Of a DNA stretch of 64,000 nucleotides, positions 22,324-54,801 are shown in pieces. Within the stretch, counting starts at the first letter, position 1; every line of letters starts with the position of its first letter. Made by a program: the position numbers and the translations under genes. The notes beneath the pieces were generated by a model. It made no database searches, was not told where the DNA came from, and was given only the letters and a program-made list of their open reading frames with translations. The DNA is taken from the IMG/VR virus record IMGVR_UViG_3300029267_004887, positions 1-64,000 of that record; one strand, given 5' to 3'. This DNA comes from a virus.

Positions 22324-22334
22324 TAGGGGGGATC

Positions 22335-22784
22335 ATGTCACTCAGACGTCGTGAGTATTTGGATGAACTAAAAGGCGAAGCTGATTTTTACAAGTTTCTA
22401 CACAAGCGTAACAGAGGTGTTTTCTATCGAGGTTCGGACAAGGGGGGCAAAGGTATTGGTATGGGTGCCATTGGTGCAGGGGTGTATCTCACATGGGACA
22501 AGAGGGTGGCTAAGGCGTTTGCTCAACACCATGGGCAAGGTGGCAAGGTGGAGGCATACAAACTCAAGCCAGGGCTTAAAATATTGGATTCCAGAAGTCA
22601 GTTGGTTATAGATTTGAAGGCAGAGATGGGTTTTGATCCGTATGGCTATACGGACGATCCGATGTTTGCTAATTTCATTACATACCATGCAAAAAAGGCG
22701 GGGTTTGATGGTGTGATCAGTGACAAGCTAGCAGAAGGGTTAGTGATTTTTGATTTTAAAAAGATGAAAAAAGTAAAAGAGTAA
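22335..22784 (+). CDS. ADP-ribosyltransferase-like protein with capsid-targeting-like leader
   Basis: 149 aa from ATG 22335 (GGGGG upstream). Leader MSLRRREYLDE with a predicted cut after Glu11. The body shows the ADP-ribosyltransferase pattern: VFYRGSDKGG with the NAD-binding Arg, GVYLTWDKRVAKAFAQHHG, then VEAYKLKPGLKILD and FDGVISDKLAEG. T4 packages an ADP-ribosyltransferase (Alt) behind a cleaved leader and injects it to modify host RNA polymerase, a close functional parallel. Target and activity are inferred; the catalytic Glu is not certain. Confidence 0.6.
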   Translation: MSLRRREYLDELKGEADFYKFLHKRNRGVFYRGSDKGGKGIGMGAIGAGVYLTWDKRVAKAFAQHHGQGGKVEAYKLKPGLKILDSRSQLVIDLKAEMGFDPYGYTDDPMFANFITYHAKKAGFDGVISDKLAEGLVIFDFKKMKKVKE

Positions 22785-25740: not shown

Positions 25741-26508
25741 ATGGACAGGATTGATATGGATAAAGGCATAACGGAATTAAAAGAGCACAGACCGTCAAAA
25801 GATGCGGAGACAGAGACGACGATGCCTAAGCGGTCTCCAAATAAAAGACATCATATTTTGGGGCGAGATCCCGGCAAAATCAGGAGGTTGAAGTGTTTTG
25901 CTGAGGTAGACAGGATGATTCGTGAAGGGGTTTTTTTGCGGGATGTCGAGGATTATATTCGTAGCCAAGGGGAGATGGAAGGTGTGTCCAGGGCTGCGAT
26001 CAGGAGTATGATTCGGCGGCACAAGAAGTATGTTTTCTCTGACGACAGTGTGTTGGATGGTGATTTAAACACCAACGAGGTAGACGAGGATGATCCATTT
26101 TATGCTTTGTATTCGCTGGAGCGTAAGCTCAGACAAATGGAGCGTCGTATAGATATGGAGGTGCAGACGGAAGAGAACTTGTCTAAATTGTTTTCGACAA
26201 CACACAAGGAGTTTCTTACACATTTTCGTTTGGCCAAAGGTATTTTGGATCGTCGAGACAAGCTTGGATTGCTGAAGAAGGAGAGAGGGGGGACAAGACA
26301 GCGGGTAGGGAGTGGTACATCTGGGCGAGTGGATGTTCAAGACGTCATATCCAAGCCGGAGTCGCGTCACAAGGTATTGGGTTTGGTAGAGGCATTGATG
26401 CGCGATCCAGAGTTACTAGATCATATAGGGGATGATAAAAAGGATGTTCAGAAGGTAAAAACACCACGGCCAAAGAGACGAAAGCGTCGTAAGAAAAATG
26501 ATAATTGA
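25741..26508 (+). CDS. Probable small terminase subunit
   Basis: 255 aa. Basic N-terminus, a possible HTH around FLRDVEDYIRSQGEMEGVSR, a long central coiled coil (LERKLRQMERRIDMEVQTEE) and a strongly basic tail (RPKRRKRRKKNDN). Position directly upstream of the large terminase, with an 11-bp overlap, and the DNA-binding plus oligomerising layout fit TerS, which selects viral DNA for packaging. There is no sequence motif to prove it. Confidence 0.55.
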   Translation: MDRIDMDKGITELKEHRPSKDAETETTMPKRSPNKRHHILGRDPGKIRRLKCFAEVDRMIREGVFLRDVEDYIRSQGEMEGVSRAAIRSMIRRHKKYVFSDDSVLDGDLNTNEVDEDDPFYALYSLERKLRQMERRIDMEVQTEENLSKLFSTTHKEFLTHFRLAKGILDRRDKLGLLKKERGGTRQRVGSGTSGRVDVQDVISKPESRHKVLGLVEALMRDPELLDHIGDDKKDVQKVKTPRPKRRKRRKKNDN

Positions 26509-29500
26509 AACCACGGATGGTAGGCATCGTTCGCAAATAACCAAAGACGAGAAGATCAAGAACATTAAAGATCGTTGGAATACTCTATCTGAAGAAGAGA
26601 AGAGTAGCTTTCGTGTGGTCATGGATGAGTTGAGTTATTTGTCTGAGGAGAGCGAGTTTGGGTACGAGAATTTGGAGGAGATACGTTCGTGTTCGAGTTA
26701 TTTCCATGGGTTGTCAGATGCTCATTATGTTGAGCGGATAGTCAGTGTTGACGAGTTTATTCTGGACAAGCATTACCTTGGTCATGTTGGCAGTTATTTT
26801 TACGATAAATGGCGAGAAGATTTGAACGAGCTGTTTAGCGGGGAGTATACTGAAGCGATTATCACAGGTAGCTTGGGCTCGGGAAAATGCTTGGATGGAA
26901 AGACTGAGTTTTACGATCCGTCTAAGGGGTGTCGGTTCGTGCTTGAGGAAGTGTGTGGAGAGGATGATGTTTATGTAGTTGCTTTTGATAAAGAACAGAA
27001 CAAGACGGTGTCCAAAAAGGCCGAGGTGAGACTATCTGGAGAGAAACGTCTGGGTACATTGATATTGTCCAGTGGCAAGAAGATTCGGTTGAGCCAGGAT
27101 CATCCCATTTTGACGGCAGATGGTTGGACGCCAGTGGGTGAATTGGGTGTTGGGGATCTTGTGGCGACAGCCAGATCAGTTCCTGAACCAGAAGTTTGTT
27201 ATGACATATCGGATGAAGAGGTTGAGTTTGTTGCGTTTATGTTGACAGACGGGGCTTGTTCGTCTGGAAATTGGTCTTTCACCAAGGGATCAGATTCTTG
27301 TTTGAGACGATTTGTTGATGTGACATCTTCGTTGTGGTGGCGTCAGAACACCATGTCACCAAAAAAACGGGGGGTTAGTGTCAAGGAAAAGGATGCAGGT
27401 AAGATGACCTTGTATCCACGAGGAACAAGATGGATACAGCGTAAATATGGACTTTATCAGACATCTCATGGAAAACGTGTTCCACCTGAATTTTTCGGTT
27501 TGTCGGATCGCAAATTGGGGCTGTTTCTTAATAGGGTTTGGTCGTGTGATGGAAATATAAATTACAGAGATCGTAATACTTTTGAGATTTCGTTAGCAAG
27601 CGAGATGTTTGTACGGGATATTCAACAGCTTTTACTTAGGTTTGGCATTCATTCAAGGATGAAAAAGAGACGGGTTTCCTATCAATACAAAGGGGAAAAG
27701 AGGTGGAGTTGGTCTTGGCGATTGACAGTATCTGGTGTGGATAATCTGGAGCCTTTCTGCAATGCGATTGGTTCTCACCTTGGAAAAGAAGAAGCATGGG
27801 AAGAGGTTAATGAGTGGGTAAAGGCAAACAAGGGGAGAGGCAATACGAATGTTGATGTTACTCCTGTCACCACAGAGGAGTCGAAACAGTTACGTTCGGA
27901 TTTGGGTGTTTCTGTTAAGGATTGGACATCGAATCGGGTAACCAAAGGGCAACGTATGGGTCATGCCAAATTGGTGTCTATTGAAGAAATGGCTTCTTTG
28001 CCCGAGTGGTGTGATTGGTGGACGGGAGTGTTTTGGGACAAGGTAGTGTTTTTCAAATTGGATGATGAGGTGAGTCCTGTTTATGACGTAGAGGTGCCTG
28101 GTCCAAAGAATTTTGCGCCGGGTGGAATCATTGTTCACAACACCACATTCTGTGACATGGGCTTGGCTTACATGTTTTACGAGTTGTGCATGTTGAAGGA
28201 TCCGCAGGCTACTTTTGGTTTGATGCCTGGATCTGAGATTGTTCTGGTGTGTTTCAATCGTGATAAAAAGTTGGCAAGGGATGTGACGTTTGGTGGGTTG
28301 AAGCGGAAGTTGGAGGTCAGTCCGTTTTTCAAAGAGCTTGGGGTGAAGTTTGGCAACTCTGAGATGGTGTACGAGAAGAAGAACATTCGGGTCATTGCGG
28401 TATCGGTAAGGTCCGCAGATGCGATGGGTCGAGATGTTTTTGGTGGTATCATTGATGAGACGGATTTCATGGAGGGGAGCATTCTGAAAAAAAGTGTTGG
28501 CACGGGCACGCCGGGGAATCGTCCGTTTGCAGAGTTGTTGCATGAGTCGATAACGAGGAGAATGAAATCCAGGTATGATCGAGCTGGTGTGTTACCTGGT
28601 AAGCTGTTTTTGTCATCTTCAGCGAGGCACAAGACGAGTTTTACGAACAAAAGGATTGGTGAAGCATCGAATGAGTCTCATGTTTTTTGTCGAGATTACG
28701 CTATTTACGACGTAGCGCCACCTGAGCGCTTCTCCAAGCGGCGTTTTTGGGTTTTGGTAGGTACAGAGCGTATTCGTCACAGAATCCTCACAAAGACCCA
28801 GTATCGAGCGATAAAGAAGCCTGAGAGAGATAAGCTGATCGAGCAGGGGTGTAAATTCATCCGTGTACCTCAGAATTTTCGGCCAGATTTTGAGAGTAAT
28901 ATCGAAGATGCCATCAGGGACATTGCGGGGGTGGTAACGGTAGCGTTATCACCGTTTATCCAGATGCGTGATAAAATTTATGAATCAATAGATCCTACTT
29001 TGTTCCATCCGTTGTCAGAGCTTACATGGTCGACAGATGAGATGCCGTACATCGATTGGAACAAGTTGGTGCGGCGATATGAGAGGCGGGTAGGGCCGGG
29101 TAGAAAGGTAGAAGAGATCCGCCCCAGACGTCATCCGTTTGCCCCAAGGCATGTGCATTTTGATCTGAGTTTGGGTGCTCAAGATCCGGCTGGTATGTGT
29201 ATCGCTCATGTGGTGGATACGATAAAGGTGGAGCGGCGGACAGATCAGGGTGATCCAATCCTGGATGAAGCTCCGTTGATTGAGGTCGATCTTATCTTGC
29301 GTATCGATCCGCCAAGGAATGGTGAGATTAATTTTGCCGCAGTGCGCGGTATTGTTTATGATTTCATGCGGCATGGATATATTATCAGCTTTGCTTCGGC
29401 TGATTCCTTTCAAAGTCATGATACTATTCAGCAAATGGAGGCACAGGGGGTCGACGGGGAGATAGTGTCAGTGGACAAGACGATGGAGCCATACACTGTG

Positions 29501-30247
29501 TTGAAAACTGCGTTTTACGAGGGACGTATCAGCGTGTATGAGTATCCGATTTTATTAGAGGAATTGGTCCAGTTGCAGCGTGATGAGGTTAAGCGAAAAG
29601 TTGACCACCCACAGAATGGATGTTTTGTTGGCAATACTAGGGTTTCGTTGATAAATGGAATGACGCCAATGATTTCAGAGATGACAGAAAAAGAGAGTTT
29701 AGTCTACTCTTGTGACTCTGCTGGAGTTGTTGTCGTTGGCAAAGCTAGGGGGAGATGGACAAAGGACGTTACGAAATTGGTAGAGGTATTTCTTGCCAAT
29801 GGAGAAATCGAGAGATGCACACCGGAGCACAGGTGGATGTTGAGCGATGGAACTTACAAACAAGCTCAAGATTTGGAGCCAGGCAGAGATGTTTTGATGT
29901 CTATGTTTGGTCCTTATTGTCGAGTAGTAGATGTCGAGTTGTTGGAGTTTGATTTGCCTGTACCTGTGTACGACTTGGAGGTCGATCAGTTTCACAATTT
30001 CGCATTGCAATCTGGGGTGTTTGTACATAACAGTAAGGATTGTTCCGATTCGTTGGCTGGAGTGACCTATACGTTGTCCAAGCATGTTTCGTATCAGGCT
30101 CCGTTGATGATGGGTGAAAGTGAGACGATCAAACCGGATGCTGATTCTGAGTGGATACGTCAGACAATGTCAAAATCAGGAGATAAATCTCCTGTAAAAG
30201 TTGGTTCGGTTGATTCACGAGGTAAGCCGATAGTTTTTTCAGGGTAG
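26498..30247 (+). CDS. terL: Large terminase subunit with two inteins
   Basis: 1249 aa precursor; removing inteins at residues 131-548 and 1042-1178 leaves 694 aa, a normal T4 gp17-type length. Spliced, the ATPase shows ITGSLGSGK-TTF (Walker A) and GGIIDETDF (Walker B, Asp653 of the precursor). The nuclease shows HVHFDLSLGAQD (about residue 889) and DHPQNG-SKDCSDSLAG, the last metal-binding motif. It cuts concatemeric DNA and drives it into the prohead. Both inteins interrupt catalytic motifs, so splicing is essential. Confidence 0.93.
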   Translation: MIIETTDGRHRSQITKDEKIKNIKDRWNTLSEEEKSSFRVVMDELSYLSEESEFGYENLEEIRSCSSYFHGLSDAHYVERIVSVDEFILDKHYLGHVGSYFYDKWREDLNELFSGEYTEAIITGSLGSGKCLDGKTEFYDPSKGCRFVLEEVCGEDDVYVVAFDKEQNKTVSKKAEVRLSGEKRLGTLILSSGKKIRLSQDHPILTADGWTPVGELGVGDLVATARSVPEPEVCYDISDEEVEFVAFMLTDGACSSGNWSFTKGSDSCLRRFVDVTSSLWWRQNTMSPKKRGVSVKEKDAGKMTLYPRGTRWIQRKYGLYQTSHGKRVPPEFFGLSDRKLGLFLNRVWSCDGNINYRDRNTFEISLASEMFVRDIQQLLLRFGIHSRMKKRRVSYQYKGEKRWSWSWRLTVSGVDNLEPFCNAIGSHLGKEEAWEEVNEWVKANKGRGNTNVDVTPVTTEESKQLRSDLGVSVKDWTSNRVTKGQRMGHAKLVSIEEMASLPEWCDWWTGVFWDKVVFFKLDDEVSPVYDVEVPGPKNFAPGGIIVHNTTFCDMGLAYMFYELCMLKDPQATFGLMPGSEIVLVCFNRDKKLARDVTFGGLKRKLEVSPFFKELGVKFGNSEMVYEKKNIRVIAVSVRSADAMGRDVFGGIIDETDFMEGSILKKSVGTGTPGNRPFAELLHESITRRMKSRYDRAGVLPGKLFLSSSARHKTSFTNKRIGEASNESHVFCRDYAIYDVAPPERFSKRRFWVLVGTERIRHRILTKTQYRAIKKPERDKLIEQGCKFIRVPQNFRPDFESNIEDAIRDIAGVVTVALSPFIQMRDKIYESIDPTLFHPLSELTWSTDEMPYIDWNKLVRRYERRVGPGRKVEEIRPRRHPFAPRHVHFDLSLGAQDPAGMCIAHVVDTIKVERRTDQGDPILDEAPLIEVDLILRIDPPRNGEINFAAVRGIVYDFMRHGYIISFASADSFQSHDTIQQMEAQGVDGEIVSVDKTMEPYTVLKTAFYEGRISVYEYPILLEELVQLQRDEVKRKVDHPQNGCFVGNTRVSLINGMTPMISEMTEKESLVYSCDSAGVVVVGKARGRWTKDVTKLVEVFLANGEIERCTPEHRWMLSDGTYKQAQDLEPGRDVLMSMFGPYCRVVDVELLEFDLPVPVYDLEVDQFHNFALQSGVFVHNSKDCSDSLAGVTYTLSKHVSYQAPLMMGESETIKPDADSEWIRQTMSKSGDKSPVKVGSVDSRGKPIVFSG
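26888..28141 (+). mobile_element. Intein 1 of TerL, LAGLIDADG endonuclease type (418 aa)
   Basis: Inserted inside Walker A between GSGK and TTF. Begins CLDGKTEFYDPSKG; block B is LSQDHPILTADGW; ends GGIIVHN before Thr+1. The endonuclease has two LAGLIDADG-type helices, FVAFMLTDGACSSG and LFLNRVWSCDGNIN, both with the acidic residue, so it may be active and mobile. Confidence 0.92.
29621..30031 (+). other. Intein 2 of TerL, mini-intein (137 aa)
   Basis: Begins CFVGNTRVSLINGMTP, block B is CTPEHRWML, block F VPVYDLEVDQFHNFAL, and it ends GVFVHN before Ser+1. No endonuclease. It interrupts the C-terminal nuclease motif with the metal-binding Asp. Confidence 0.92.
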
Positions 30248-37979: not shown

Positions 37980-39524
37980 ATGAAGAGAAAAGTACTCCAG
38001 ATCCAAGAAGTTGAAATCCCCGAGGGGAAGGATCTCCTTGAAGACGTTGTTGTGTTGGAGTTTTCACCCGAAGATTTGCATGAAGGTGAAGGCGAAGGCA
38101 AGCGTCCATACCTCAAGGGCAGGTTAGGGCTAACGGATCAGGCTACAGCGAATAAACGTCTTTATCCTCGTAAACTCATGGTGAGAGAAATCAATCGTTT
38201 GAGTGAGGATATGCAAGGTCGCAAGGTGTTTGGTGAGTTGGATCATCCCGGAGACGGGAAGACAAAACTTGCTCGTGTGAGTCATTTTGTGACCGAGGCG
38301 GCTATCGCAGAGGACGGTGAAATAAAAGGTGTGATTGAGTTCATCCCTGGCACCGTCAACGGAGATCAGGCCCTTGCGATTGCGAAAGCAGGTGGCAAAT
38401 TGGGTGTGAGTAGTCGAGGTTTTGGAACAACGGCTACTGACAACAAAGGGAATGATGTCGTCCAGGAGGACTACAAGTTGGTCACCTGGGACATCGTAGC
38501 TGATCCGGCAAACGCTGGTGCCCACCCTGATTTTGTGGTGGAGCATAAGGAGAATACAGAGATGATGGATCTGGGAAAATTAAAAGAAGAACACCCCGAG
38601 CTGGTAGAGGAACTGACGAAAGAGATTGAGTCAGATGCACGGACCCATGCGCGGGAGGCATTGCGCGAGGAATTTGAAGAACGGCTTCGGTCAGAGGGAG
38701 AATCCATCCGGGAGGAAGCTGTTGAAGTGGCTCGTGGCCAATTGCTAGAGGATCCCGAAGTGGCAGGCTCATCCCTTGCCTTGGAGGAGATCAAGAGGAT
38801 CGTGACTCCCTTCATTTTGTCGGAAGACACGAATCACGAAGTGACAAAACTCAAGGCTCACAATCAGGAATTAGAGCGCAAGATTGCCGAGCAGGACGAG
38901 GAGATAGCTGAGGTAAGGCAGGAAGCTGAGGAGCTGTCTGTTATTGCCAAGGAATTTGGCTATCATCTGCACCTGGAGCGAGAGCTTAGGGACAATGAGC
39001 GAGCTGATCAGATTATCGAGATGTTGGGTGATGTCACAGACTTTGAGACACTTGACGATCTTGCAGGCAGGGTAGAAGAAATATCTACTGCTCTTGCCGA
39101 GGGAGACGATGTCAAAGAGGAGTTTGAAGACAGGATTGCTCAGTTGGAGAAGAAGGTTAATCTCGTTACGGAACAACGAGATAAAGCTTTGGCCATTAGC
39201 AAGCAATTTGGTATTCGGGCTTACATTGAGCGGAAAATATCAGGTAGTCCACAGGCTTCGAGGTTGCGCGAGCACATTGATTCGGTGCAACCGAGCAACA
39301 AAGAGGGTGTGGACAAGCTGGTCGAATCGTTCAAGGCTGACAACCCTCCATCGAGAGAGTTCGAGGAAATTCGAAGTCAGATAATCAGTAGCAGGCCAAG
39401 GCATTTGGATAGTGACGATGATCTAAGGGTGTCGATAGAAGAAGACGTCACGGTCATGGGCGTTCCGATGTCGGAGTTGCAGAAACGGTCAGGAATTTCT
39501 GCTGAGAGGAAAACTGGGAATTAA
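37980..39524 (+). CDS. Prohead protease (T4 gp21-like) with long coiled-coil extension
   Basis: 514 aa. The N-terminal 200 residues hold the protease: YPRKLMVREINRL, VFGELDHPGDG (catalytic His89), VIEFIPGTVNGDQALAIAKA and KLGVSSRGFGT (Ser144/145), then LVTWDIVADPANAGAHP. Residues 200-500 are acidic coiled coil, unlike the 212-residue T4 enzyme, so protease and scaffold may be one chain. An L-x-E site (Glu35 in EDLHEGEGEG) could be self-processed. It should cleave head proteins at L/I-x-E. Confidence 0.88.
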   Translation: MKRKVLQIQEVEIPEGKDLLEDVVVLEFSPEDLHEGEGEGKRPYLKGRLGLTDQATANKRLYPRKLMVREINRLSEDMQGRKVFGELDHPGDGKTKLARVSHFVTEAAIAEDGEIKGVIEFIPGTVNGDQALAIAKAGGKLGVSSRGFGTTATDNKGNDVVQEDYKLVTWDIVADPANAGAHPDFVVEHKENTEMMDLGKLKEEHPELVEELTKEIESDARTHAREALREEFEERLRSEGESIREEAVEVARGQLLEDPEVAGSSLALEEIKRIVTPFILSEDTNHEVTKLKAHNQELERKIAEQDEEIAEVRQEAEELSVIAKEFGYHLHLERELRDNERADQIIEMLGDVTDFETLDDLAGRVEEISTALAEGDDVKEEFEDRIAQLEKKVNLVTEQRDKALAISKQFGIRAYIERKISGSPQASRLREHIDSVQPSNKEGVDKLVESFKADNPPSREFEEIRSQIISSRPRHLDSDDDLRVSIEEDVTVMGVPMSELQKRSGISAERKTGN

Positions 39525-39581: not shown

Positions 39582-41075
39582 ATGAATGAAGCAAGAGATT
39601 TTTTGAACAGCGATGCAAAAGAGAACAGCGTGGGAACGATCCTGGACGAAGATGTCAACGTGGCGCTCCAGGCCAAATGGGCTGGAATGTTGGAGGAGAT
39701 TGACGACAGCTGGACCCGTCGATGCATGGCGTGTTTGTACGAGAACCAGATGAATCATCTGGGGACGTTGAAGCAGAAGTATCTCTCTGAGAGCACACTC
39801 GCTTCGAACATCCCCGATCTCGTCAAGTTTGTATTCCCCGTCATCCGCAAGGTGTGGTCGAACTTGATTGCAAACGGTCTGTTCTCGATTCAGCCGATGA
39901 ATTCTCCCATTGGAGGTATCTTCTATTGGGATTACAAGTATGGCACCACCAAGGGTACCATCACCGCTGGCGACGACATGATCGACAACTTCGATCCGAA
40001 CTACTCCTCGGAGTACGTCGCAGCTGAGACGATTGGTGCTGGCCCTGGGGACAACTTCACTGGCACCACGGATTGGAGCGCGGTCAAGGCGTACGGTCTG
40101 GGTCAGGTAGGGATAGAATTCCTGGCGACAGCTGTGAGCGATGGATCTGAGAAGAGGATCTACGACGCAGACGGTTCTGGCACGTTGGCTGGTGACATCG
40201 GGGCACCTTCGACGATCACTTTGGCAACTGGTGTTTATGACATCACCTTTGACGAGGATGTAACCACCGTGATCGCCAACTACTACTACTCGATGGAGGG
40301 AGTGGCTGCGAACGTACCTCAAGTCAACATCGACATCCAACTGGAAGCCATCAAAGCTTACAGCCGTAAGCTCAAGGTGATGTGGAGTAGTGAAGCTGCT
40401 GACGACATGCGGGCAGTGCTCAATATGGATATTGAGCCCGAGCTGACCCAAGGAGTGGCGTCTGAGATCGCGCTGGGGATTGATCGCGAGCTGATCAACC
40501 GGGCGTATGCTTCTGGGACTACCAACACCGACACCTTCGATGCAGCGGTACCCCCTGGTCGCAATCAGGCGGATCATTTCCGCAACATCATGACCGTGAT
40601 CGAGAAGGTTTCCGGAGGCATCAACACAGCGACCCACAGAGGGCCAGGAAACTTCCTGGTTATTGGACCCAGTGTCCAACCCATCTTTGGTGCGTTGGCA
40701 ACCCATGGCGACCTCGTGAGGGTGTTTGACCAGCTTCCAAATATCCCGCAGGGTAAGGGCGTGACAGGACGTCAAGCATTTGCTCTCCCGCAGGCTCCAA
40801 CTGGGTACGGTGTGTATCCCATGGGCTACTTGCAGAACAAGTGGACTGTGATCATCGATCCTTACTTCCCGTCTGGGAAAATCCTGGTTGGATTGAAGGG
40901 ATCACTCTTCACCGATTCGGGTCTGGTATATGCGCCGTACGTGCCACTGGAGATGACGGCTGCTTTCCTCGACCCAGCAGACTTCACGATTCGTAAGGGC
41001 ATGAGGACGAGGTATGCGAAGAAGCTTGTGAACAACAAGTTCTTCGGTATCATCACGGTAACCAACTTGCCATAG
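39582..41075 (+). CDS. Major capsid protein (T4 gp23-like)
   Basis: 497 aa. Near-N-terminal WAGMLEEIDDSWTRRCMACLYENQ and LIANGLFSIQPMNSPIGGIF are gp23 signatures; RKLKVMWSSEAADDMRA and NIDIQLEAIKAYSRKLK lie in the HK97-fold core. The C-terminal part has VGLKGSLFTDSGLVYAPYVP. It forms the icosahedral shell. Codon use is more C-rich than in its neighbours, typical of a highly expressed gene. A possible maturation site is L-D-E at Glu23 (VGTILDE-D). Confidence 0.93.
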   Translation: MNEARDFLNSDAKENSVGTILDEDVNVALQAKWAGMLEEIDDSWTRRCMACLYENQMNHLGTLKQKYLSESTLASNIPDLVKFVFPVIRKVWSNLIANGLFSIQPMNSPIGGIFYWDYKYGTTKGTITAGDDMIDNFDPNYSSEYVAAETIGAGPGDNFTGTTDWSAVKAYGLGQVGIEFLATAVSDGSEKRIYDADGSGTLAGDIGAPSTITLATGVYDITFDEDVTTVIANYYYSMEGVAANVPQVNIDIQLEAIKAYSRKLKVMWSSEAADDMRAVLNMDIEPELTQGVASEIALGIDRELINRAYASGTTNTDTFDAAVPPGRNQADHFRNIMTVIEKVSGGINTATHRGPGNFLVIGPSVQPIFGALATHGDLVRVFDQLPNIPQGKGVTGRQAFALPQAPTGYGVYPMGYLQNKWTVIIDPYFPSGKILVGLKGSLFTDSGLVYAPYVPLEMTAAFLDPADFTIRKGMRTRYAKKLVNNKFFGIITVTNLP

Positions 41076-42990: not shown

Positions 42991-43623
42991 ATGCCACGGC
43001 TGGGAGATTTGGGAGGCAGTGTCAAGATACTCAAGGATATGCGAGATCAGTTGGTGGAGAATGATCGCAGGGTGAAGATAGAGGAGGAGAGGTGGAGTAG
43101 TTTCGGTACGGCTGTTTCCAAGATTTCCCTTGCGTGTGAGAGCCGAGATCTCGAACAACTTGTAGCGGCAGCGAGGGAGCTGAAAAACAGGTTGAGACGT
43201 CCTTCTGTGCGTAAAGAGCTGGCCAAGTTGGAGGCTACCAAGTCGTCAGGTGATGAAGCGCAAAAGAAGAAAAAGGTTGCTCCGAAAGAGAAGGAGTCTG
43301 TTCCGAAAGAGAAGGTGTCTGCTCCGAAGAGTGACAATTTTAAAGAGAAGGACAAGGTTGTTGTTCCCAAGGAGAAAAACCCAGTTGGTCAATGTAAGTG
43401 TGACCAGTGTGGGAAGGTCATAGATGGTTCGAAGGAGCCGTGTATCGATGGCGCACTGTGCACACACTGCGCTCTGAAGAACAAGGTGATACCCAAGCAT
43501 AAGCAGAAGAAAAAGAAGGCTGTGGTGCCAGCCCTTGCGCCTGATGTGGGTATGGAGCCAGGTGGTGATGTAGAAAGGCAAGAGTCTTTTGGTCACTTGA
43601 GACAGAGGGGCTACTTGAGATGA
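42991..43623 (+). CDS. Coiled-coil and zinc-ribbon protein, 210 aa
   Basis: Starts immediately after the previous stop. Helical N-terminus (VKILKDMRDQLVENDRRVKI), then Lys/Pro repeats of the form KEKESVPKEKVSAPK, then CKCDQCGKVIDGSKEPCIDG and CTHC as a zinc ribbon. It ends HLRQRGYLR, close to the leader motif of the candidate internal proteins but without the Glu. Overlaps the next start by four bases. Function unknown. Confidence 0.6.
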   Translation: MPRLGDLGGSVKILKDMRDQLVENDRRVKIEEERWSSFGTAVSKISLACESRDLEQLVAAARELKNRLRRPSVRKELAKLEATKSSGDEAQKKKKVAPKEKESVPKEKVSAPKSDNFKEKDKVVVPKEKNPVGQCKCDQCGKVIDGSKEPCIDGALCTHCALKNKVIPKHKQKKKKAVVPALAPDVGMEPGGDVERQESFGHLRQRGYLR

Positions 43624-46195: not shown

Positions 46196-47314
46196 ATGAT
46201 CGACGAATCGATAGTTGAGTTGGTAGAGCAGTTAGCTGGTGATGACAACGATGTTGATTCGTTTGGAATGGATCCTTTGACGAAGAAAAGATTGAAGGTC
46301 AGCCGGTTGATGCAGCGAAAAAAAATCAAACCTCGTAAGCCCATGAGATCGAAGTTACCCTACTCCATGGCCAAGGTTCCAAAATTACCAGAAAGCGAGG
46401 GATTTGGAATGAGTAAGCTGAGAAGAAGAGAATACTTGGGCGAGCGTCAGAAGGTAGCAGCTGGCTTGGCGATGGGTGGCGAGGATAGGACGTCTCGACC
46501 TGGAGCTTTCAAGATAAGCTCCAATATTTTGAACTGGTTCAAGCAGGAGACAGGTATAGAAAATCCTGAGCAATTTTTATTCAAGAGTCAGAGGGAGATT
46601 ATTAATAAAATTCCGAGGGATAAGTTGCCGATAATTTGGGGCAAGGACAACATGGCTGATGCACAGGACGTAATAGCCAAGAATCCCAAAAAAGCATTTC
46701 AGATGTGGCTTCGAAATGTTGGCAAAGTAGAACCTCGTTTAGCGAAGGGTATTCGTCGGATTCCAGAGAATGCTCCGTTGTGGTTTTACGCCATATTGCT
46801 GAGGGTAAGTGGCCGAGATATGGCGGACATTATATTGAAACAGTATTTCATGACGAAGCCATCTCAAGCGTGGAGGGGGAAGCTTAAGAAAGAAGAAGTT
46901 GACATGAGTAAATTGAGACAGCGTAGGTATTTTGAAGAGGGAAAATCCTGGACGACGCATGGAGGCGGTGGGGCAAAGGGTTCTTTGTTGGAGAAGGCGA
47001 TTGCGCCTTATAATAAGAGCATTGCGGAAGAGTTTATCAGGTTGATACCCAAGAAGGCATATGCTGATGTGCTTGGGAAAAACTATATGGGGCATGGTCA
47101 TGTTCTTGTAGTAGGGGAAGGAACAAACTCGTCTGACTTGTCAATATCGTGGCAATTTCATGTGGATCATTATGGTGATGAGATTCGTTTTGTTCTCAAA
47201 ATGAGAGTTCCAAATGCAAAAGGGGAGATTGTGGTACGAGAGTCGATTACGGGTAGTGCAAGTCCAAAGCTTGCCATTGGTAAGATGGTGAAAGAATTGT
47301 CGAGCAGAATGTAA
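46196..47314 (+). CDS. Putative multi-module internal protein with two embedded leaders, 372 aa
   Basis: Two copies of the leader motif lie inside one chain: MSKLRRREYLGE at residues 72-83 and MSKLRQRRYFEE at 237-248. The chain thus reads as a basic 71-residue piece, a 153-residue helical module (WFKQETGIENPEQFLFKSQR) and a 124-residue module (SISWQFHVDHYGDEIRFVLK). Each embedded leader still starts with Met, as if separate genes had fused. Cleavage would release at least three products. Functions unknown. Confidence 0.65.
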   Translation: MIDESIVELVEQLAGDDNDVDSFGMDPLTKKRLKVSRLMQRKKIKPRKPMRSKLPYSMAKVPKLPESEGFGMSKLRRREYLGERQKVAAGLAMGGEDRTSRPGAFKISSNILNWFKQETGIENPEQFLFKSQREIINKIPRDKLPIIWGKDNMADAQDVIAKNPKKAFQMWLRNVGKVEPRLAKGIRRIPENAPLWFYAILLRVSGRDMADIILKQYFMTKPSQAWRGKLKKEEVDMSKLRQRRYFEEGKSWTTHGGGGAKGSLLEKAIAPYNKSIAEEFIRLIPKKAYADVLGKNYMGHGHVLVVGEGTNSSDLSISWQFHVDHYGDEIRFVLKMRVPNAKGEIVVRESITGSASPKLAIGKMVKELSSRM

Positions 47315-47315
47315 A

Positions 47316-47735
47316 GTGACGTTTTCACTCACCAGTTCTATTTGCGTACTTCGAGAGGCCAGGAGATCTTTTATCACCCCTGGCAAAGATGGCCGAGGTA
47401 AGCATGACAGGGTGGGGCTCGTGCTGGAGAAGTTTTTCCATTCTACTCCAGAGTTTGAGCGGTCTCTTGTCAGCCAGGATAAGAGGCCGAACGGGTGGAC
47501 GTTGACTGGATCTTGGCCGAGTTCTGGTAGGCAGATGTTTGACTGGGAGATGGAAGTTTGGGGACAGGGTGGTGGAGAGGTGGTTGTCAAGACGAATCTG
47601 TGGAGCCGAGATGGCTATACAGATGGGCAGTCGTGGAAAGTGACGTTGGCGAACGTTGACAAGACGGTGCTCAAATGGTTGCGAAAGTTTTTCTATCCAT
47701 TGAAGGCTGAGATGAAAAGGAGATCGGAAAAATGA
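47316..47735 (+). CDS. Unknown small protein, 139 aa
   Basis: GTG 47316 is one base after the previous stop. Contains KHDRVGLVLEKFFHSTPEFE and a Trp-rich beta part (FDWEMEVWGQGGGEVVVKTN), ending in a basic helix (VLKWLRKFFYPLKAEMKRR). It resembles the neighbouring small beta-plus-helix modules but has no clear leader. Function unknown. Confidence 0.55.
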   Translation: MTFSLTSSICVLREARRSFITPGKDGRGKHDRVGLVLEKFFHSTPEFERSLVSQDKRPNGWTLTGSWPSSGRQMFDWEMEVWGQGGGEVVVKTNLWSRDGYTDGQSWKVTLANVDKTVLKWLRKFFYPLKAEMKRRSEK

Positions 47736-48445
47736 ACTTGAGACGACGTAGGTATCTGACCGAGGAGAAGGCAACCGGTAAGGTTTTGCCTAAGTTTTTG
47801 CCAAAAACCGAGGTGTCAGATCCGAGTGGTCTTAGATTTTCTTTTTGGGATGGGAAAGTAGCACTTGTAACGACAAGCTGGTTGGATGAATCAGATCCTC
47901 GTAATTGGTTTGATCCTCAACTTGTTGCTCGTAAACATTTGGTACGATATGCACTGGATCCTAACAGTCTTAAACCGTTCAAGGCGGAGAAGATTTTCTT
48001 ACGGGCTGAACCTGCTGTTTCTAATCCTAGTATTCCCTACGAAAAAACATCTTTTAGTATTTATGGTGGTCGTGGTTTAGGGTCGGTTATTAAGGGTAGA
48101 TTTGGACCGTCTGTTGAGGTTTGGGTTAAGTTGAAGTGGGGCCAACTGGGGAAGGGTGAGTTGTCTATTCTTGAGAGATACTGGCTTACACTTGGTTATT
48201 ATGATTCGGGCTATCACAAACTGACCGGGGCTGATTGGAAGAAGGCATTTAGTATGCGTTCGTACCGAGATGTTCAGGATAAATTTGGATATGAGAAAGC
48301 GAACATGTTTGAGGAAGTTTTAAAAAGACTTAATGGTCACAGGTATCCTGATGAAAATCAGGAGGAGGGTCTGTGGAAGTCTATCAAGGGAGTGTTTGCG
48401 TTAACTAGAAAAAATGACAAGGTTCGGTATTTCATAAAGAGATAG
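47732..48445 (+). CDS. Candidate internal protein, leader MNLRRRRYLTE, 237 aa
   Basis: The leader shows the full motif, with a predicted cut after Glu11. The body begins ATGKVLPKFLPKTEVSDPSG; later SIYGGRGLGSVIKGRFG and WLTLGYYDSGYHKLTGADWK. Basic overall. Overlaps the previous stop by four bases. Function unknown. Confidence 0.6.
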   Translation: MNLRRRRYLTEEKATGKVLPKFLPKTEVSDPSGLRFSFWDGKVALVTTSWLDESDPRNWFDPQLVARKHLVRYALDPNSLKPFKAEKIFLRAEPAVSNPSIPYEKTSFSIYGGRGLGSVIKGRFGPSVEVWVKLKWGQLGKGELSILERYWLTLGYYDSGYHKLTGADWKKAFSMRSYRDVQDKFGYEKANMFEEVLKRLNGHRYPDENQEEGLWKSIKGVFALTRKNDKVRYFIKR

Positions 48446-48491: not shown

Positions 48492-51400
48492 ATGAGGTTG
48501 ATGCAGTCCACTGAATTATCACAAATGCGCGATGTCATTTTGGGCAAAGATATGCAGGCACTTACCGAGGGGGTTGATCCTAACAAAACTGCGACAGAAG
48601 ATGTCGAGTTGGACGAGGCGAAAAAGCGGTACGTGAAGTACGAAATAGAGAAGACAGATCTCCCCGGAAGAGGGCCGTGGATGGCCAAGGTGTACAGAAA
48701 AGATGGGACATGGGAGACGACATTCGGTCGTACGAAAAAGGCTGTGGAGAAGGATGTCAAGGCTCTCATGGGCTTTGATGAGGATGTGGAGATCACCGAA
48801 GGCAAAAGGTATTACGTGCTGGCTGGCAAGGCATCCAAGACGTCTCCTTGGGAAGTTGTGTTTGGGGACTATGACAAGGAGAATGTAAGGGACGAGAAAG
48901 ACAGCGAATCGGGTAGTTGGAAAAAGCTGAAGATTATTTCTCTTGGCACAGATAAGCAGAGTGCGATTGATGCAGCTATTAAAAAACTGAGAGAAGACGT
49001 CGAGCTGGATGAGGGGAAACAAAAACCTTGTCATTGTAAGTCTATCCAAGGATGGAAAGCAGAGGCAGGTGGTTTTGGTCAGGGAACTTGGGTGACATGT
49101 GAAAAGTGTGGTGGTCACGCAATGAACAGGCTTAATGAGATAGGTGCTACTGCTCATTATGCGTTGCCAGTTTTGAAATCAGCATTGGCAAAAGCAAAGA
49201 AGTTGAGAGAAGACGTCGAGCTGGATGAGGGGAAACCTTTGGGGCATGAGCACATTGGTATGAGTCGTCCACAGCTTGTAAACTTGTTGAAGCAAATTCC
49301 TTGGATAGACAAGTTGGGACCAAAGATGTTGGCATCGCTGATCACCTTTGGGCAGTCCGATGGTCTTGTTATGATGTTGATACGTTCTGAAAATGAAGCG
49401 GAGTACAAAGAGAGATTGAATACTTTGCGGAGTGTCCGAGGCAGCATGACTGCGAACAAAGCGAATACTATTATCAGTAAACTGAAAACAGGTAAGTATC
49501 TGGAGGATGTTGACAAAAAGGAGACAGGCATGGGGACGTCCAGTTTGATACGAGAGATGCGGAATGAATTACTAGGTGGCCAAGCTGGCGATAACATCGA
49601 GCTGGACGACAAGAGCGAGGGTTGTGATACCCCTGGAAAGAAAACAAAGTCAAAGGGCAAAGGTAAAGGGCTCGCTCGTGGAAGAGGCAAGGGACCTCTT
49701 GGTATCCCGGTTGGTGAAAAAGCTGATGAAGATGTCGAGCTAGATGAGGCTGGTGTGTACAACATACTGGGTCATTCGAAGTCAAGTAATCCATCTGGAG
49801 AAGCGCAGAAGCTGGCCAAGCGAATCAAGACAGAGATTGAAAAGAGTATGCCGCCTGGGTATGTGTTGGTGTGTGAGGTGAGATCAAGTTTGGGTCGTAA
49901 GCATATCTACCTTGTTACGGCATTAGAGAAAGACAAAAGCAAATGGTCGAACGGGATCATGATGAACGATCCTGCGTTACATAAGATTATAATTTACGGG
50001 GTAAACGAAGACGACACATTGGCTGATAAATTGGAGGCAAATATTGCGACGGGGGGCAAGCTGATGGTGAAGCCCGATCCTGGATCGCACTATGCTTTTG
50101 GTAGTGTGAAGTTTGGTTGGAGGAAAAAGAAGGGTACTCCCGATCAGATCGTCAAGCATTTTGGGAATTATTTCAAAAAGGTGAAAAAGGTTATTCAAGA
50201 CAACAAAGGAAGGTTGCCGAAAGTGTTTAAATCAACTGAAGACATCGAGATGCACGAGGGTGGCATAGAACGTCCTGTTTTCCCAAAGAAGTTCAAAATA
50301 AAAGGGACAGGCAGTGCCAAGGATATAGTGGTCACGGGGACTGTGGGCAGACAGATGTTCAAGACAGTGACTTACGATGTGAAAGTTGACAGTTTGAAAA
50401 CCAAAGAGCAACTGGCTACTGGCAAAGTTATTTATGACACTGTTCATGATGTCGTAGCTTTCAATATGAAATCCGACAATGCTCCTTCAGGTGCTGAAAA
50501 AGTGGTTAAGGGCATGATCAAAAAAGAGCTTCTGGCATATGCCAAGGCCCATGCTTATGAAGACGTCGAGCTGGATGAGATTAAATTAAGTGATAACGAA
50601 AGAGAAATTTTAGGTCTGGGCAAAGCTGCTTTTTTAAGTGGTAAGAAAAGGATACCAGCGAGAGACAAAACCTTGATGGGGATGATCAAGGGTATGAAGC
50701 CTGGTGCTGGAGCCAAAGCTCTGTTGTCAGTATGGCTTCGAGGTTGGGATCAGGCTAACCTGGCAAAACGTGAAGAAAGCGTCGAGTTGGATGAGGGGAA
50801 ACTTACTTCAAGTCAGGTTGTTGAGTTGCGAAAAGAAACTGTTAAAAACGGGATTCCTGTACGGTTTCTGGTAGGTGGACGTGCTATTGATATTATGACT
50901 GGTGAGTTATCTAAAAAAGGTAGCAACGTTATGCATCATCCTGTTTATTGGAATTTTACAAAAGAGACAGCTAAGAAGGTTGCCAAGATGGTTGGTGCTA
51001 AGGCTGTTTTTTCCGAGGATATAGAAGACGTTGAGCTGGAGGAATCGATTTCTCCTGTTTCTGATAAAGAGTTAAAAACTGGGCTTGAGAGCGGGAAGTA
51101 TGAGTATGTTGGAACCAGTGATGGTTTGGATGGAAAGGTTTATTATCGAGTGAGGGATCATCGTCGGAATGGGGAGATGCAATATATTGCAGGGACAAAA
51201 TATAAAAAGTCAAAATATAAATGGATAGAGAAGTATGAGAAACATGAAGACGTCGAGCTGAAAGAAGTGAATGTGATTAAAAAGCTTCGAGACAGTTTGT
51301 TAGGGGATTCTTGTGATGCAGAAATGGAAGAGTCGGATGGGTCCAGGTTTCGACAGCGTGAGTATCTGACAGAGGCTCCGGCTGACATCATCTTGCAACA

Positions 51401-51674
51401 GTTGGGTGGTGGTAATCGTTTGAGAATGATGATCGGTGCGAAGCATATTTACTCTGACGACAATGGAAAGTCTTTGGTTTTTCAATTCCCCAACAGGTTG
51501 AGGAGTAAACCGAACTACGTAAAAATTACTCTCACTTCCATGGACTTGTACGATGTGCAGTTTGGTCGAGTTGGCAAAAAGGGTTTCAAGAAGTTGAAGA
51601 GATACACCATGGTGTATGCTGACATGCTCAAGGATATGTTTGAAAAAGAGACGGGGTTGTATATCAGGCTCTGA
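48492..51674 (+). CDS. Putative injected polyprotein cut by the prohead protease, 1060 aa
   Basis: ATG 48492 after AAGGAG. Leader MRLMQSTELSQMRDVILGKD then QALTE. Then at least ten near-identical linkers of the form EDVELDE, each ending in L/I/M-x-E, separate small unrelated modules. Predicted P1 Glu residues are 26, 42, 103, 174, 246, 419, 589, 696, 768, 851, 925 and 961. Modules are about 60-175 aa. 175-246 has CHCK/CEKC pairs; 247-419 ends in a Lys/Gly-rich stretch; 697-768 has a W-x-x-GW pattern seen in Rmf/CrpP-like proteins; 962-1060 (NRLRMMIGAKHIYSDD) follows the REYLTE leader and resembles small stand-alone phage proteins. L-x-E is the T4-type protease rule. Processing and packaging are inferred. 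Confidence 0.75.
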   Translation: MRLMQSTELSQMRDVILGKDMQALTEGVDPNKTATEDVELDEAKKRYVKYEIEKTDLPGRGPWMAKVYRKDGTWETTFGRTKKAVEKDVKALMGFDEDVEITEGKRYYVLAGKASKTSPWEVVFGDYDKENVRDEKDSESGSWKKLKIISLGTDKQSAIDAAIKKLREDVELDEGKQKPCHCKSIQGWKAEAGGFGQGTWVTCEKCGGHAMNRLNEIGATAHYALPVLKSALAKAKKLREDVELDEGKPLGHEHIGMSRPQLVNLLKQIPWIDKLGPKMLASLITFGQSDGLVMMLIRSENEAEYKERLNTLRSVRGSMTANKANTIISKLKTGKYLEDVDKKETGMGTSSLIREMRNELLGGQAGDNIELDDKSEGCDTPGKKTKSKGKGKGLARGRGKGPLGIPVGEKADEDVELDEAGVYNILGHSKSSNPSGEAQKLAKRIKTEIEKSMPPGYVLVCEVRSSLGRKHIYLVTALEKDKSKWSNGIMMNDPALHKIIIYGVNEDDTLADKLEANIATGGKLMVKPDPGSHYAFGSVKFGWRKKKGTPDQIVKHFGNYFKKVKKVIQDNKGRLPKVFKSTEDIEMHEGGIERPVFPKKFKIKGTGSAKDIVVTGTVGRQMFKTVTYDVKVDSLKTKEQLATGKVIYDTVHDVVAFNMKSDNAPSGAEKVVKGMIKKELLAYAKAHAYEDVELDEIKLSDNEREILGLGKAAFLSGKKRIPARDKTLMGMIKGMKPGAGAKALLSVWLRGWDQANLAKREESVELDEGKLTSSQVVELRKETVKNGIPVRFLVGGRAIDIMTGELSKKGSNVMHHPVYWNFTKETAKKVAKMVGAKAVFSEDIEDVELEESISPVSDKELKTGLESGKYEYVGTSDGLDGKVYYRVRDHRRNGEMQYIAGTKYKKSKYKWIEKYEKHEDVELKEVNVIKKLRDSLLGDSCDAEMEESDGSRFRQREYLTEAPADIILQQLGGGNRLRMMIGAKHIYSDDNGKSLVFQFPNRLRSKPNYVKITLTSMDLYDVQFGRVGKKGFKKLKRYTMVYADMLKDMFEKETGLYIRL

Positions 51675-51689: not shown

Positions 51690-52127
51690 ATGAGACTCAG
51701 GAAACGTGGTTACTTGGTCGAGGGCGGGAAGCCGATAATTGTTGGCAGTTTTGATTCTGGAGTGGCCAGGAAGACAAAAGGAGCTTGGGTATCAGACGTA
51801 GAGAGGGCCATATCAAAGGCATTGGTGTGGAGTTCTTACGGAGATGCTTTTTTTAATTTGACAGCGGCTATTCATTGGGAGCGAGAGGGCCGAAAAGGCC
51901 CACGGGATTATAATAGTGTGGATTATATTCTTCAGATCAGAGAGAAGGATATTGAGCCTGTTGCCAATAAGCCAAATTTTGTAATAGATGTTTACAACCC
52001 TGGTGTTCCAAATTCTGGTGAAGACCTTGGTATATTTCACACTGAGAGACAGGCGAAGGCAGTTGCTAAAAAGTGGTTGCTCAAGAAAGCTATAAAATTT
52101 AAACCAACGAGAATCAGTAAGATATAG
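51690..52127 (+). CDS. Candidate internal protein, leader MRLRKRGYLVE, 145 aa
   Basis: Predicted cut after Glu11 before GGKP. The mature part (VERAISKALVWSSYGDAFF, KAVAKKWLLKKAIKFKPTR) is a paralogue of the gene at 54307 (SAVSKILTWTKGKN, VARDWLSKYVADHY), with both ending in TRIS. A beta-sheet core between two helices is likely. Function unknown. Confidence 0.62.
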   Translation: MRLRKRGYLVEGGKPIIVGSFDSGVARKTKGAWVSDVERAISKALVWSSYGDAFFNLTAAIHWEREGRKGPRDYNSVDYILQIREKDIEPVANKPNFVIDVYNPGVPNSGEDLGIFHTERQAKAVAKKWLLKKAIKFKPTRISKI

Positions 52128-52136
52128 GAGGCAATT

Positions 52137-52742
52137 ATGACACTCAGGCATCGAGGATACATCACAGAATCGAAGGAGATTCATGTTGGGCTCAATGAGT
52201 TGCCCAGTGCCTTGCAGAAGGCGTTGAAAAAAGTTGGCTACAGACGAAGAGATGTGCGTGTTTACTCTGCAACAGAGACGACTATTGGTCCACCATCGTT
52301 CGAAGGAAGTCGTGGGTTTGCGATGGCTGTAAATCTAAAAACGGGTCAGATGTCGGATATTCAGTATGGTTCATGGGGAGGGCCGAATCCGTTTGAGAAA
52401 AAGCCGGTAGATCACCAGCGTAAGCCTGTGAGAATTGCTGCCAATGGTGCAATCATCACAGGGGAGGTAGGTGGCAGGGGGGTGTTTGCATCTATCTACG
52501 TTCATCCTGATTCGTTAGCTCCTTTGTTGCCAGGTGGGAATGACGTCACAGAGCGAGAGAGGGAGATCCTTGCGATGGCTTGTTACAAGTCTTTCTACAA
52601 GAAGGAACTTTTCGAGCGTCATCGAGTTACAAAGGATGAGATCTTGAATTTGGTTAAAAGGGGATACATGAAGATGAACAAAGCTGGGGCTACTTCAGTA
52701 ACTCCCAAAGGTAAGAACGAAAGATCTAATAAGTATTACTAG
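52137..52742 (+). CDS. Candidate internal protein, leader MTLRHRGYITE, 201 aa
   Basis: ATG 52137 after TAGGAGG. Predicted cut after Glu11 before SKE. The body is one alpha/beta domain (LPSALQKALKKVGYRRRDVR, GGRGVFASIYVHPDSL, ERHRVTKDEILNLVKRGYMK). No recognised family. Lies between two other leader-bearing genes. Confidence 0.62.
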   Translation: MTLRHRGYITESKEIHVGLNELPSALQKALKKVGYRRRDVRVYSATETTIGPPSFEGSRGFAMAVNLKTGQMSDIQYGSWGGPNPFEKKPVDHQRKPVRIAANGAIITGEVGGRGVFASIYVHPDSLAPLLPGGNDVTEREREILAMACYKSFYKKELFERHRVTKDEILNLVKRGYMKMNKAGATSVTPKGKNERSNKYY

Positions 52743-52750
52743 AGGGAGAG

Positions 52751-53503
52751 GTGAAGCCGATGAGGATGCCAAGGAAAATCAATGTCGACATCAAAACAGA
52801 TGCCATGGGAAATATTATCGCTTCTCCAGTGAGTAAGAAATATGCAAAGGCATTTTCTGATGTACGCAGGGAGAATGGTGGTGGCAGTGATTTGAATGTG
52901 TTTTTCCAAGAGGGTGGACCTGCTACTCAGTTCCTGAACGATCTTACACCCAGACAACGGCGTGAGATAAACAAGGGTTGGGATGTACGTATAAAGGTAG
53001 ATCCTTGGATAGTTGGGCATTGGTATGGTTACGATGCTCATACGGTTGCTGAGAGTGTCTCCTTGCGTGATCGTGGATATGTGGTGGAAACAGGGAGTGA
53101 TATTGATGATGTTTCTTTTGGGGAGAAGAGTTTGTTCGAGTTGAACATGTCTACATGGAAGCACGAGATGGAGTGGGGAGCGGATCGTTGGAAGTATGCG
53201 AAGGAGATGTTTGACTACATCGAGGGTCGGATGGCTAAGAAGGTGTATTCGGTATTGTCCAAGGTTTTGAAAAAAGACGGTAGTATCGAGATGGCTGGAG
53301 AGATGAAAGGGGTGGGTCCTTTTGTTATAAAAATGGATCACAAGGTTAAGCCTAATTCTAGAACTGGCGCTACACGAGAGCATGTCCAGATTATAATTGG
53401 CAAAGATGGGAAAAACGACAAAGTAGAAAAGCTGTTTGGTGCCACGGCGGGTGACAGGCTTATAACCAAATGGGTCATGCGTGAGTTGAATGATCGGAGG
53501 TAG
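52751..53503 (+). CDS. Candidate two-part internal protein with embedded leader, 250 aa
   Basis: GTG 52751 or ATG 52760; the purine-rich GAGGGAGAG site is close to both. The first 100 residues (ATQFLNDLTPRQRREINKGW) precede an embedded SVSLRDRGYVVE motif, with a predicted cut at about residue 113. The second part (ELNMSTWKHEMEWGADRWKY, GPFVIKMDHKVKPNSRTG) would then be released. Function unknown. Confidence 0.58.
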   Translation: MKPMRMPRKINVDIKTDAMGNIIASPVSKKYAKAFSDVRRENGGGSDLNVFFQEGGPATQFLNDLTPRQRREINKGWDVRIKVDPWIVGHWYGYDAHTVAESVSLRDRGYVVETGSDIDDVSFGEKSLFELNMSTWKHEMEWGADRWKYAKEMFDYIEGRMAKKVYSVLSKVLKKDGSIEMAGEMKGVGPFVIKMDHKVKPNSRTGATREHVQIIIGKDGKNDKVEKLFGATAGDRLITKWVMRELNDRR

Positions 53504-54283: not shown

Positions 54284-54306
54284 TCGTTGTTGATAAGGGA
54301 GGTGTG

Positions 54307-54801
54307 ATGGTTAACTTGAGGAAACGCGAGTATTTATCCGAAGCTGGAAAATCGATGGATATTGATATACCGCTGTTGTCCAAAGCTGTTGGGCGTACGT
54401 TTCATTCCAGACGTCAAGATTACAGAGATAGGAAAACACACCATATATCTGATGTAAAATCAGCTGTTTCAAAAATTTTAACTTGGACCAAAGGAAAAAA
54501 TGCTGGCGAGCAGTGGAGTGTTATCCGGTTAGTTCATCGTGATGGAAAAGAACAAGATATTTTCATCAATTTTTATTCTCACTTTGGTAGTGCTTTTGCG
54601 CCAAAGGGAAGTCCAATATCGTTGGTAGTTTTTGATCGTCAGAATTCACAGAAAAACATGTTTAGTGCTTATGCCAAGACGGTGCGCGAGGTGAAGAAGG
54701 TTGCGAGGGATTGGTTGTCGAAATATGTTGCTGATCATTATGTAACGAAGATCACGCGTATTTCGACAAAAACAAAACGTCCGGCAAGGAAGTTGGGGTA
54801 G
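54307..54801 (+). CDS. Candidate internal protein, leader MVNLRKREYLSE, 164 aa
   Basis: ATG 54307 after GGGAGG (GTG 54304 alternative). Predicted cut after Glu12 before AGKS. The body is a paralogue of 51690 (shared WTKGKN/WSSYG, VARDWLSKYV, TRIS ends). Function unknown. Confidence 0.62.
   Translation: MVNLRKREYLSEAGKSMDIDIPLLSKAVGRTFHSRRQDYRDRKTHHISDVKSAVSKILTWTKGKNAGEQWSVIRLVHRDGKEQDIFINFYSHFGSAFAPKGSPISLVVFDRQNSQKNMFSAYAKTVREVKKVARDWLSKYVADHYVTKITRISTKTKRPARKLG

Follow-up and report, generated by a model that had tools for sequence, protein, structure and literature searches.

A Probable Prohead-Targeted Cargo Polyprotein with Repeated Protease-Type Linkers in a T4-Superfamily Phage

Results

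Gene and Genome Setting

In this study, we analyzed a window of 64,000 nucleotides, which is the first 64 kb of the viral contig IMGVR_UViG_3300029267_004887 (142,254 bp), and focused on one open reading frame (ORF) at positions 48492–51674 on the plus strand. The ORF encodes a chain of 1060 amino acids (aa), in which small modules are joined by repeated linkers of the type EDVELDE. We believe that this chain is probably a prohead-targeted cargo polyprotein of an uncultured T4-superfamily phage, which is cut by the prohead protease into approximately ten small proteins. The chain is modular, its sites are non-random, its module order is shuffled in a relative, and the genome encodes a prohead protease and a capsid site that match the linkers.

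The head and tail genes of the contig are of the T4 type, including an S77 prohead protease at 37980, a gp23 capsid protein at 39582, and a tail sheath protein at 59410. The ORF is located inside the head-gene region, approximately 9 kb downstream of the protease and capsid genes, in a long co-directional run of tightly packed genes. It has 1060 codons and an ATG start preceded by AAGGAGAT, and is a real gene, whose full-length protein is approximately 118 kDa. The Pfam search found no family in the protein at E 0.001, and the per-module search gave none above the cut-off. Neither a peptidase domain nor any other known polyvalent domain (ADP-ribosyltransferase (ART), ParB, PBECR, LPD, and others) was found in the chain with Pfam. 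The bacterial genomes searched with the capsid protein to find the host gave no match.

Linker Sites and Their DNA

EDVELDE or its close variants end at residues 42, 103, 174, 246, 419, 589, 696, 768, 851, and 925. The 7-mer [ED][DS][VI]E[LIM]xE has 10 copies in the ORF, compared with a mean of 0.00 and a maximum of 1 in 5000 shuffles of the same protein, and the other selected ORFs of the 142-kb genome contained none. A preliminary description of this DNA had reported such linkers between mutually dissimilar modules, and we found the same: there was no significant similarity among the modules of the window, with a best E of 0.26. The twelve Glu residues that it listed as cutting positions are all Glu in an L/I/M-x-E context. 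It had also stressed the hydrophobic-x-Glu ending, which is present at every listed site but is no evidence by itself, as 26 such motifs were seen in the ORF and 25.7 were expected in shuffles. Counting of this bare motif was dropped because it was not enriched, and the longer 7-mer was regarded as the signal.

Further related sites in the ORF are QALTE (26), EMEE (947), FRQREYLTE (961), and IELDD (373), among which EMEE is an additional candidate beyond the twelve. IELDD is linker-like but ends in Asp instead of Glu. Studies have shown that Asp in the tag of the T4 internal protein IPIII still allows targeting and blocks cutting (PMC9026906). Because IELDD ends in Asp, residues 247–419 may be released together, as a 173-residue fragment whose tail is basic.

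A second unit, (L/M)R(D/N)xLLG-like, has three copies in the ORF, at residues 12, 356, and 932. This unit with a site after it was seen 6 times, compared with 0.8 expected: at the ORF start, twice inside the ORF, and near the starts of 30257, 41900, and 42991, which are head-region genes with leaders similar to that of the ORF. In the relatives G003 and G005, several of the sites adjoining the LRDxLLG unit also end in Asp or Ala.

The near identity of the linker DNA, which had been noticed before, was borne out for the five exact EDVELDE copies. Their pairwise DNA identity was 91%, compared with 80.5% (standard deviation 2.5) predicted by the codon usage of the ORF, and 91% was reached in 0 of 2000 codon-usage simulations. 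The 21-mers flanking these linkers were only 21–34% identical. This likeness with unrelated flanks suggests recent duplication or exchange of linker DNA. The remaining linkers diverge in DNA at several joints (GAGGATGTGGAGATCACCGAA, GAAGACATCGAGATGCACGAG) yet retain the E-[LIM]-x-E core, and Glu at P1 and L/I/M at P3 are retained at homologous joints.

Prohead Protease and Capsid Site

The claim that this genome encodes a T4-type prohead protease at 37980 was confirmed. The gene at 37980–39524 (plus strand) encodes a Peptidase_S77 protein of the T4 gp21 type (PF03420, E 6e-12), and its motifs GELDHP and GVSSRG align with T4 gp21, so that the catalytic His and Ser are retained. The gene at 39582–41075 (plus strand) encodes the gp23 major capsid protein (MCP; PF07068, E 2e-60), in which L68 and E70 of KYLSE/S (nucleotides 39783–39791; the slash marks the cut) form the predicted protease site. 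In the alignment, KYLSE/S falls exactly in the column of T4 gp23 FLTE/A, the known gp21 cutting site of T4; the L and E are conserved in nine relatives, and the middle residue is variable. The site at residue 961 of the chain (YLTE/A) is nearly identical to that of T4 gp23, and the linkers end in L/I/M-x-E, matching the specificity suggested by the phage's own MCP. It has been reported that T4 gp21 cuts after L/I-X-E and that the capsid targeting sequence of IPIII comprises its first 10 residues (PMC9026906). Candidates for scaffold or core proteins are located just upstream of the protease gene (35888 and 36809).

The prohead protease gene of G005 (L138:7135-9966) has 944 codons; an intein-like insert immediately follows the catalytic-histidine motif GELDHP, and the match to the Pfam protease model is in two pieces. 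In the window, an intein was also seen in the 1249-aa ORF at 26498–30247. This intein has a LAGLIDADG domain, and residues 1099–1179 of the ORF give a second Hint-like match.

Module Map

All parts of the chain lie on the plus strand. The capsid-targeting-like leader of residues 1–26 (48492–48569), recognized from the sequence and from the three similar leaders named above, carries an MRDVILG unit and the site QALTE/G, and the first EDVELDE linker, assigned by sequence pattern, ends at residue 42 (48597–48617). Module 43–103 (48618–48800), delimited by sequence and with no relatives found, ends in EDVEITE, and module a (104–174; 48801–49013), which has an end-to-end homologue in G003, ends in EDVELDE. 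Module 175–246 (49014–49229) has a zinc-ribbon-like CxC...CxxC pattern in its sequence, gave no family match, and also ends in EDVELDE. Module b (247–373; 49230–49610), which has a homologue in G003, contains the MRNELLG unit at 356 and the probably uncut IELDD at 373; it is followed by module c (374–419; 49611–49748), a Lys/Gly-rich basic peptide with two copies in G005 and an EDVELDE site at its end.

Module d (420–589; 49749–50258; G003 homologue and phrog_21515) ends in EDIEMHE, module 590–696 (50259–50579; from sequence, no relatives found) in EDVELDE, and module e (697–768; 50580–50795; end-to-end G003 homologue and phrog_19203) in ESVELDE. Modules 769–851 (50796–51044) and 852–925 (51045–51266), both delimited by sequence, end in EDVELEE and EDVELKE, respectively. 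Residues 926–961 (51267–51374) form an internal targeting-like tag with the unit LRDSLLG, EMEE (947), and FRQREYLTE/A (961), and the C-terminal module occupies residues 962–1060 (51375–51671). Most of the predicted fragments are basic, which is in line with internal proteins that are mixed with DNA.

Modules in Relatives and as Separate Proteins

Relatives were located in IMG/VR through the capsid protein and through a linker DNA pattern. The search of viral contigs with the full-length protein found no relative, and querying with module d or with the polyproteins of G003 and G005 gave no contigs beyond those already found. The 1113-aa ORF of G003 is of the same style and shares four modules, in the order e-d-a-b compared with a-b-d-e in the window. 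The 1678-aa ORF of G005 contains many other modules and module c twice (E 1e-16 and 1e-14). After the linkers were removed, modules a, d, and e still matched G003 at E 3.7e-12, 1.1e-79, and 2.9e-14, respectively, over essentially their whole length in the window, and module b matched at E 1.8e-9. Ends of alignment blocks fell near sites in 6 of 8 cases (P 0.009 compared with random shifts), which is weak, since conserved linkers can themselves end alignments. In the G005 polyprotein (L146 3531-8513), one module at residues 924–1031 has an internal direct repeat, LKKGEIWS[IM]QIRDDSGGATKWM.

Three modules are known as separate proteins elsewhere, and none of the others has a known relative beyond the clade. 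The C-terminal module matches phrog_9437 (E 2.5e-23), a family of approximately 100 aa that is a gene of its own in KVP40, phiN3, phiM12, pT24, Tunturi_5, and others. When these free-standing homologues are aligned, their start Met is mostly within a few residues of the YLTE/A site. Module d matches phrog_21515 (a 151 aa family), and module e matches phrog_19203 (a 61 aa family), with weak matches in mycobacteriophage genes. The chain thus contains three modules that exist separately elsewhere, as expected of a polyprotein, and the strings between the linkers are, judged by sequence comparison, separable modules.

Prediction of the modules as separate structures, as proposed in the preliminary description, was carried out with AlphaFold2 on two segments, residues 948–1060 and module d, and succeeded in part. 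Residues 948–959 before the site had a predicted local distance difference test (pLDDT) below 50 and were followed by a compact helix-helix-five-strand-helix domain, but the mean pLDDT of module d was 39.7. The PDB fold search with the model of the C-terminal module gave no significant match.

Related Tag on Other Proteins

The motif LRxRxY[LIV]xE was found in nine selected ORFs of the genome, compared with 0.07 expected; its presence at the starts of free-standing genes near the ORF had been missed in the preliminary description. It is mostly located within 10 residues of the start (22003, 22320, 47732, 51690, 52137, 54304, and 102526), with internal copies in 46196 (two) and 52751. Because the free-standing proteins have no second domain to hinge, the motif on them is more naturally read as a targeting-and-cutting tag than as a linker.

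The tagged proteins given below with both coordinates are all on the plus strand. The protein at 22003–22323 begins with MLRYRTYLAE, and its homologue is the last module of an 816-aa ORF of G003 (L148, reverse complement 1-2448), located behind MGLRRRSYIEE; this ORF has two HExxH metallopeptidase-like stretches ahead of the internal tag. The protein at 47732–48445 (MNLRRRRYLTE) is fused behind another module in G005, with SSLRRRGYLAE at the junction. These two homologies indicate that the tag is, at the sequence level, a joint at which fusions happen. The protein at 22320–22784 (SLRRREYLDE) is ART-like (ART-PolyVal, E 0.026, below the cut-off), and one tagged protein is ParB-like (phrog_3147, E 1e-7; phrog_723, ParB-like). 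Polyvalent-type domains were thus weakly matched in separate tagged proteins; ART-like and ParB-like proteins are types known among delivered phage proteins. The tag alone identified the proteins at 51690–52127 (MRLRKRGYLVE), 52137–52742 (MTLRHRGYITE), and 54304–54801 (VNLRKREYLSE), the ORF at 52751–53503 with the internal tag SLRDRGYVVE, and a second multi-module ORF at 46196–47314 with the two internal tags LRRREYLGE and LRQRRYFEE.

The head-region protein at 42991–43623 carries a tag-like motif at its C-terminus (HLRQRGYLR, then stop), and its G007 counterpart (L149 1120-1701) ends in SLRSRGYLRER, then stop. G007 (L149 5342-6352) also has three tandem small genes with near-identical MTLRRR(G/S)YLxE starts, which then diverge.

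Similar ORFs Elsewhere

The IMG/VR scan for linker DNA gave at least 118 stretches, at least 16 of which had an ORF bearing two or more spaced linkers. One ORF of contig L124 has seven linkers of the EEVELDE/EDVELDE type, and L120 is also linker-rich. The pattern match L038 was discarded for its low-complexity translation. Many marine phage contigs contain ORFs of this style, as do cultured Kyanoviridae, and the products are labelled either hypothetical or "virion protein". One cultured member of the Kyanoviridae, Melnitz, encodes a comparable hypothetical protein (gene 20) together with an annotated prohead serine protease. In the cultured cyanophage S-SCSM1, mass spectrometry identified ORF92, which has an EEVELDE linker, as a virion protein, and it adjoins the virion enzyme ORF91, whose start is MKSFLQFLKEA. 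The linker-ORF contigs from the scan are fragments, and an S77 protease was not detected in the six checked outside the clade, so that they are candidate members of the class.

Discussion

Proposed Mechanism and Its Meaning

The usual description of tailed phages is that each gene makes one protein. In this study, we propose that the leader and the internal leader-type copies would dock the chain in the prohead core. During head maturation, the S77 prohead protease would cut at YLTE and at the E-[LIM]-x-E linkers, in each case after Glu, releasing approximately ten small, mostly basic proteins. By analogy with the T4 internal proteins, the released proteins would remain with the DNA inside the head and would most likely pass into the host by ejection. 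Other proteins, as their related N-terminal LRxRxYLxE tag suggests, would be delivered singly. The linker may serve as a standard joint, so that modules can be added, lost, and reordered without losing packaging or release. Reordering was observed, and it may have occurred by recombination in near-identical linker DNA. The earlier proposal of a prohead-cut cargo polyprotein thus holds in its separable modules, protease-matching sites, position in the head-gene region, and capsid-targeting-like neighbours; we infer the steps of prohead entry, cutting, retention, and injection.

We suggest, tentatively, that prohead-protease-released cargo polyproteins may be a general and so far unrecognised delivery format of T4-superfamily phages of water environments. 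The linker would then be both a targeting/cutting signal and a recombination joint, and sets of injected host-takeover proteins would evolve as exchangeable cassettes. A cargo chain cleaved within the capsid would supply ten or more proteins in equal amounts per head from a single targeting event, and would account for the carriage of varied small proteins that serve host takeover or anti-defence. It would further provide a sequence rule (E-[LIM]-x-E linkers and LRxRxYLxE tags) for spotting injected proteins among unannotated genes, and a natural model of how phage heads could be loaded with several foreign proteins.

Several points weigh against the proposal. L-x-E is a short motif, and the specificity of the 37980 protease is deduced only from the phage's own MCP. 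Close relatives are few, namely two contigs sharing modules and one more of the same style, and a usable structure model was obtained for one module only. The proteins of S-SCSM1 and other marine phages are alike in style and are not sequence homologues of the ORF. Delivery into the host is argued by analogy because no module has a known function.

Alternative Explanations

It is unlikely, in our opinion, that the chain is a polyvalent protein of many domains that stays intact through packaging and injection, its acidic linkers serving only as flexible hinges or docking motifs. Multi-domain phage proteins packaged whole are known, such as the N4 virion RNA polymerase (PMC5512222), and ART-like and ParB-like domains, which are typical of polyvalent proteins, are found among the tagged neighbours. 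However, the free-standing proteins bear L-x-E at their extreme N-terminus, with no second domain there for it to hinge, the P1 and P3 residues of the linkers are retained at homologous joints, and the modules are small, several of them matching single-domain phage proteins. The location downstream of the protease and capsid genes would also suit a prohead core or scaffold protein, whose fragments leave the head after cutting; the T4 core proteins gp22, gp67, and gp68 are cut into several fragments that mostly leave it (PMC9026906). Such a role is hard to reconcile with a module content that is shuffled and largely different among relatives, unlike a conserved scaffold, with the homology of some modules to free-standing proteins of unrelated phages, or with the mostly basic modules, as DNA-associated internal proteins would be. 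As separate scaffold/core candidates are also present just upstream of the protease gene, we consider this role quite improbable.

The likeness of the linker DNA exceeds the prediction from codon usage, which would be expected if the chain were an ordinary fusion or repeat-driven duplication, with the linkers as recombination-prone DNA only and no functional cleavage. We find this very improbable, since the joints with different linker DNA retain E-[LIM]-x-E and unrelated phages show this style with other DNA.

Comparison with Known Systems

The cargo polyprotein proposed here shares features with several known systems. In T4, IPI-III and Alt are processed by gp21 at a short N-terminal tag ending in L/I-x-E, and diverse cargo stands behind the conserved tag (PMC9026906, PMC3012670). 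Similarly, a short tag ending in a protease motif is common to otherwise unrelated proteins in this genome, although the LRxRxYLxE tag is like that of IPIII only in position and in its L-x-E ending. In contrast to the T4 internal proteins, which have one cargo per gene and one tag, there are approximately ten cargo modules per chain here, with repeated internal sites. T4 gp22, gp67, and gp68 also have several prohead-protease sites in one precursor, cut by gp21 (PMC9026906). They are scaffold/core proteins whose fragments mostly leave the head, whereas unrelated modules are shuffled between phages here.

Polyvalent proteins, which Iyer et al. (2017) likened to RNA-virus polyproteins, also have many unrelated domains in one phage protein that is thought to be delivered with the DNA (PMC5512222). 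Their release is predicted from an embedded peptidase, whereas the sites in this chain fit the separate prohead protease of the phage. The Dar system of phage P1 also places antirestriction cargo in the head, which DarB enters by means of an N-terminal signal, and processing of DarA is presumed (PMC9024508), but the genes are separate and repeated linkers are not described. In phiKZ and SPN3US, the diverged T4-type protease gp175/gp245 cuts after Glu, at more than one site in some proteins (PMC10052503); these cuts remove propeptides rather than releasing multiple cargo proteins from one chain. The linker ORFs of Kyanoviridae (S-SCSM1 ORF92 and Melnitz gene 20), L124, and L120 have EEVELDE-type linkers between unrelated modules, as here, but no homology to the modules of ORF 48492–51674 was found, and cleavage is not described.

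The preliminary description had stated that no described phage cargo polyprotein of this kind was known to it. We found none cut by a prohead protease in the open-access papers searched, and the statement should be softened because linker-joined ORFs occur in many marine contigs and cultured Kyanoviridae. Each step of the proposed mechanism has a precedent in known systems, and the combination, in which the prohead protease releases unrelated cargo modules from one chain, is new within the open-access literature searched.

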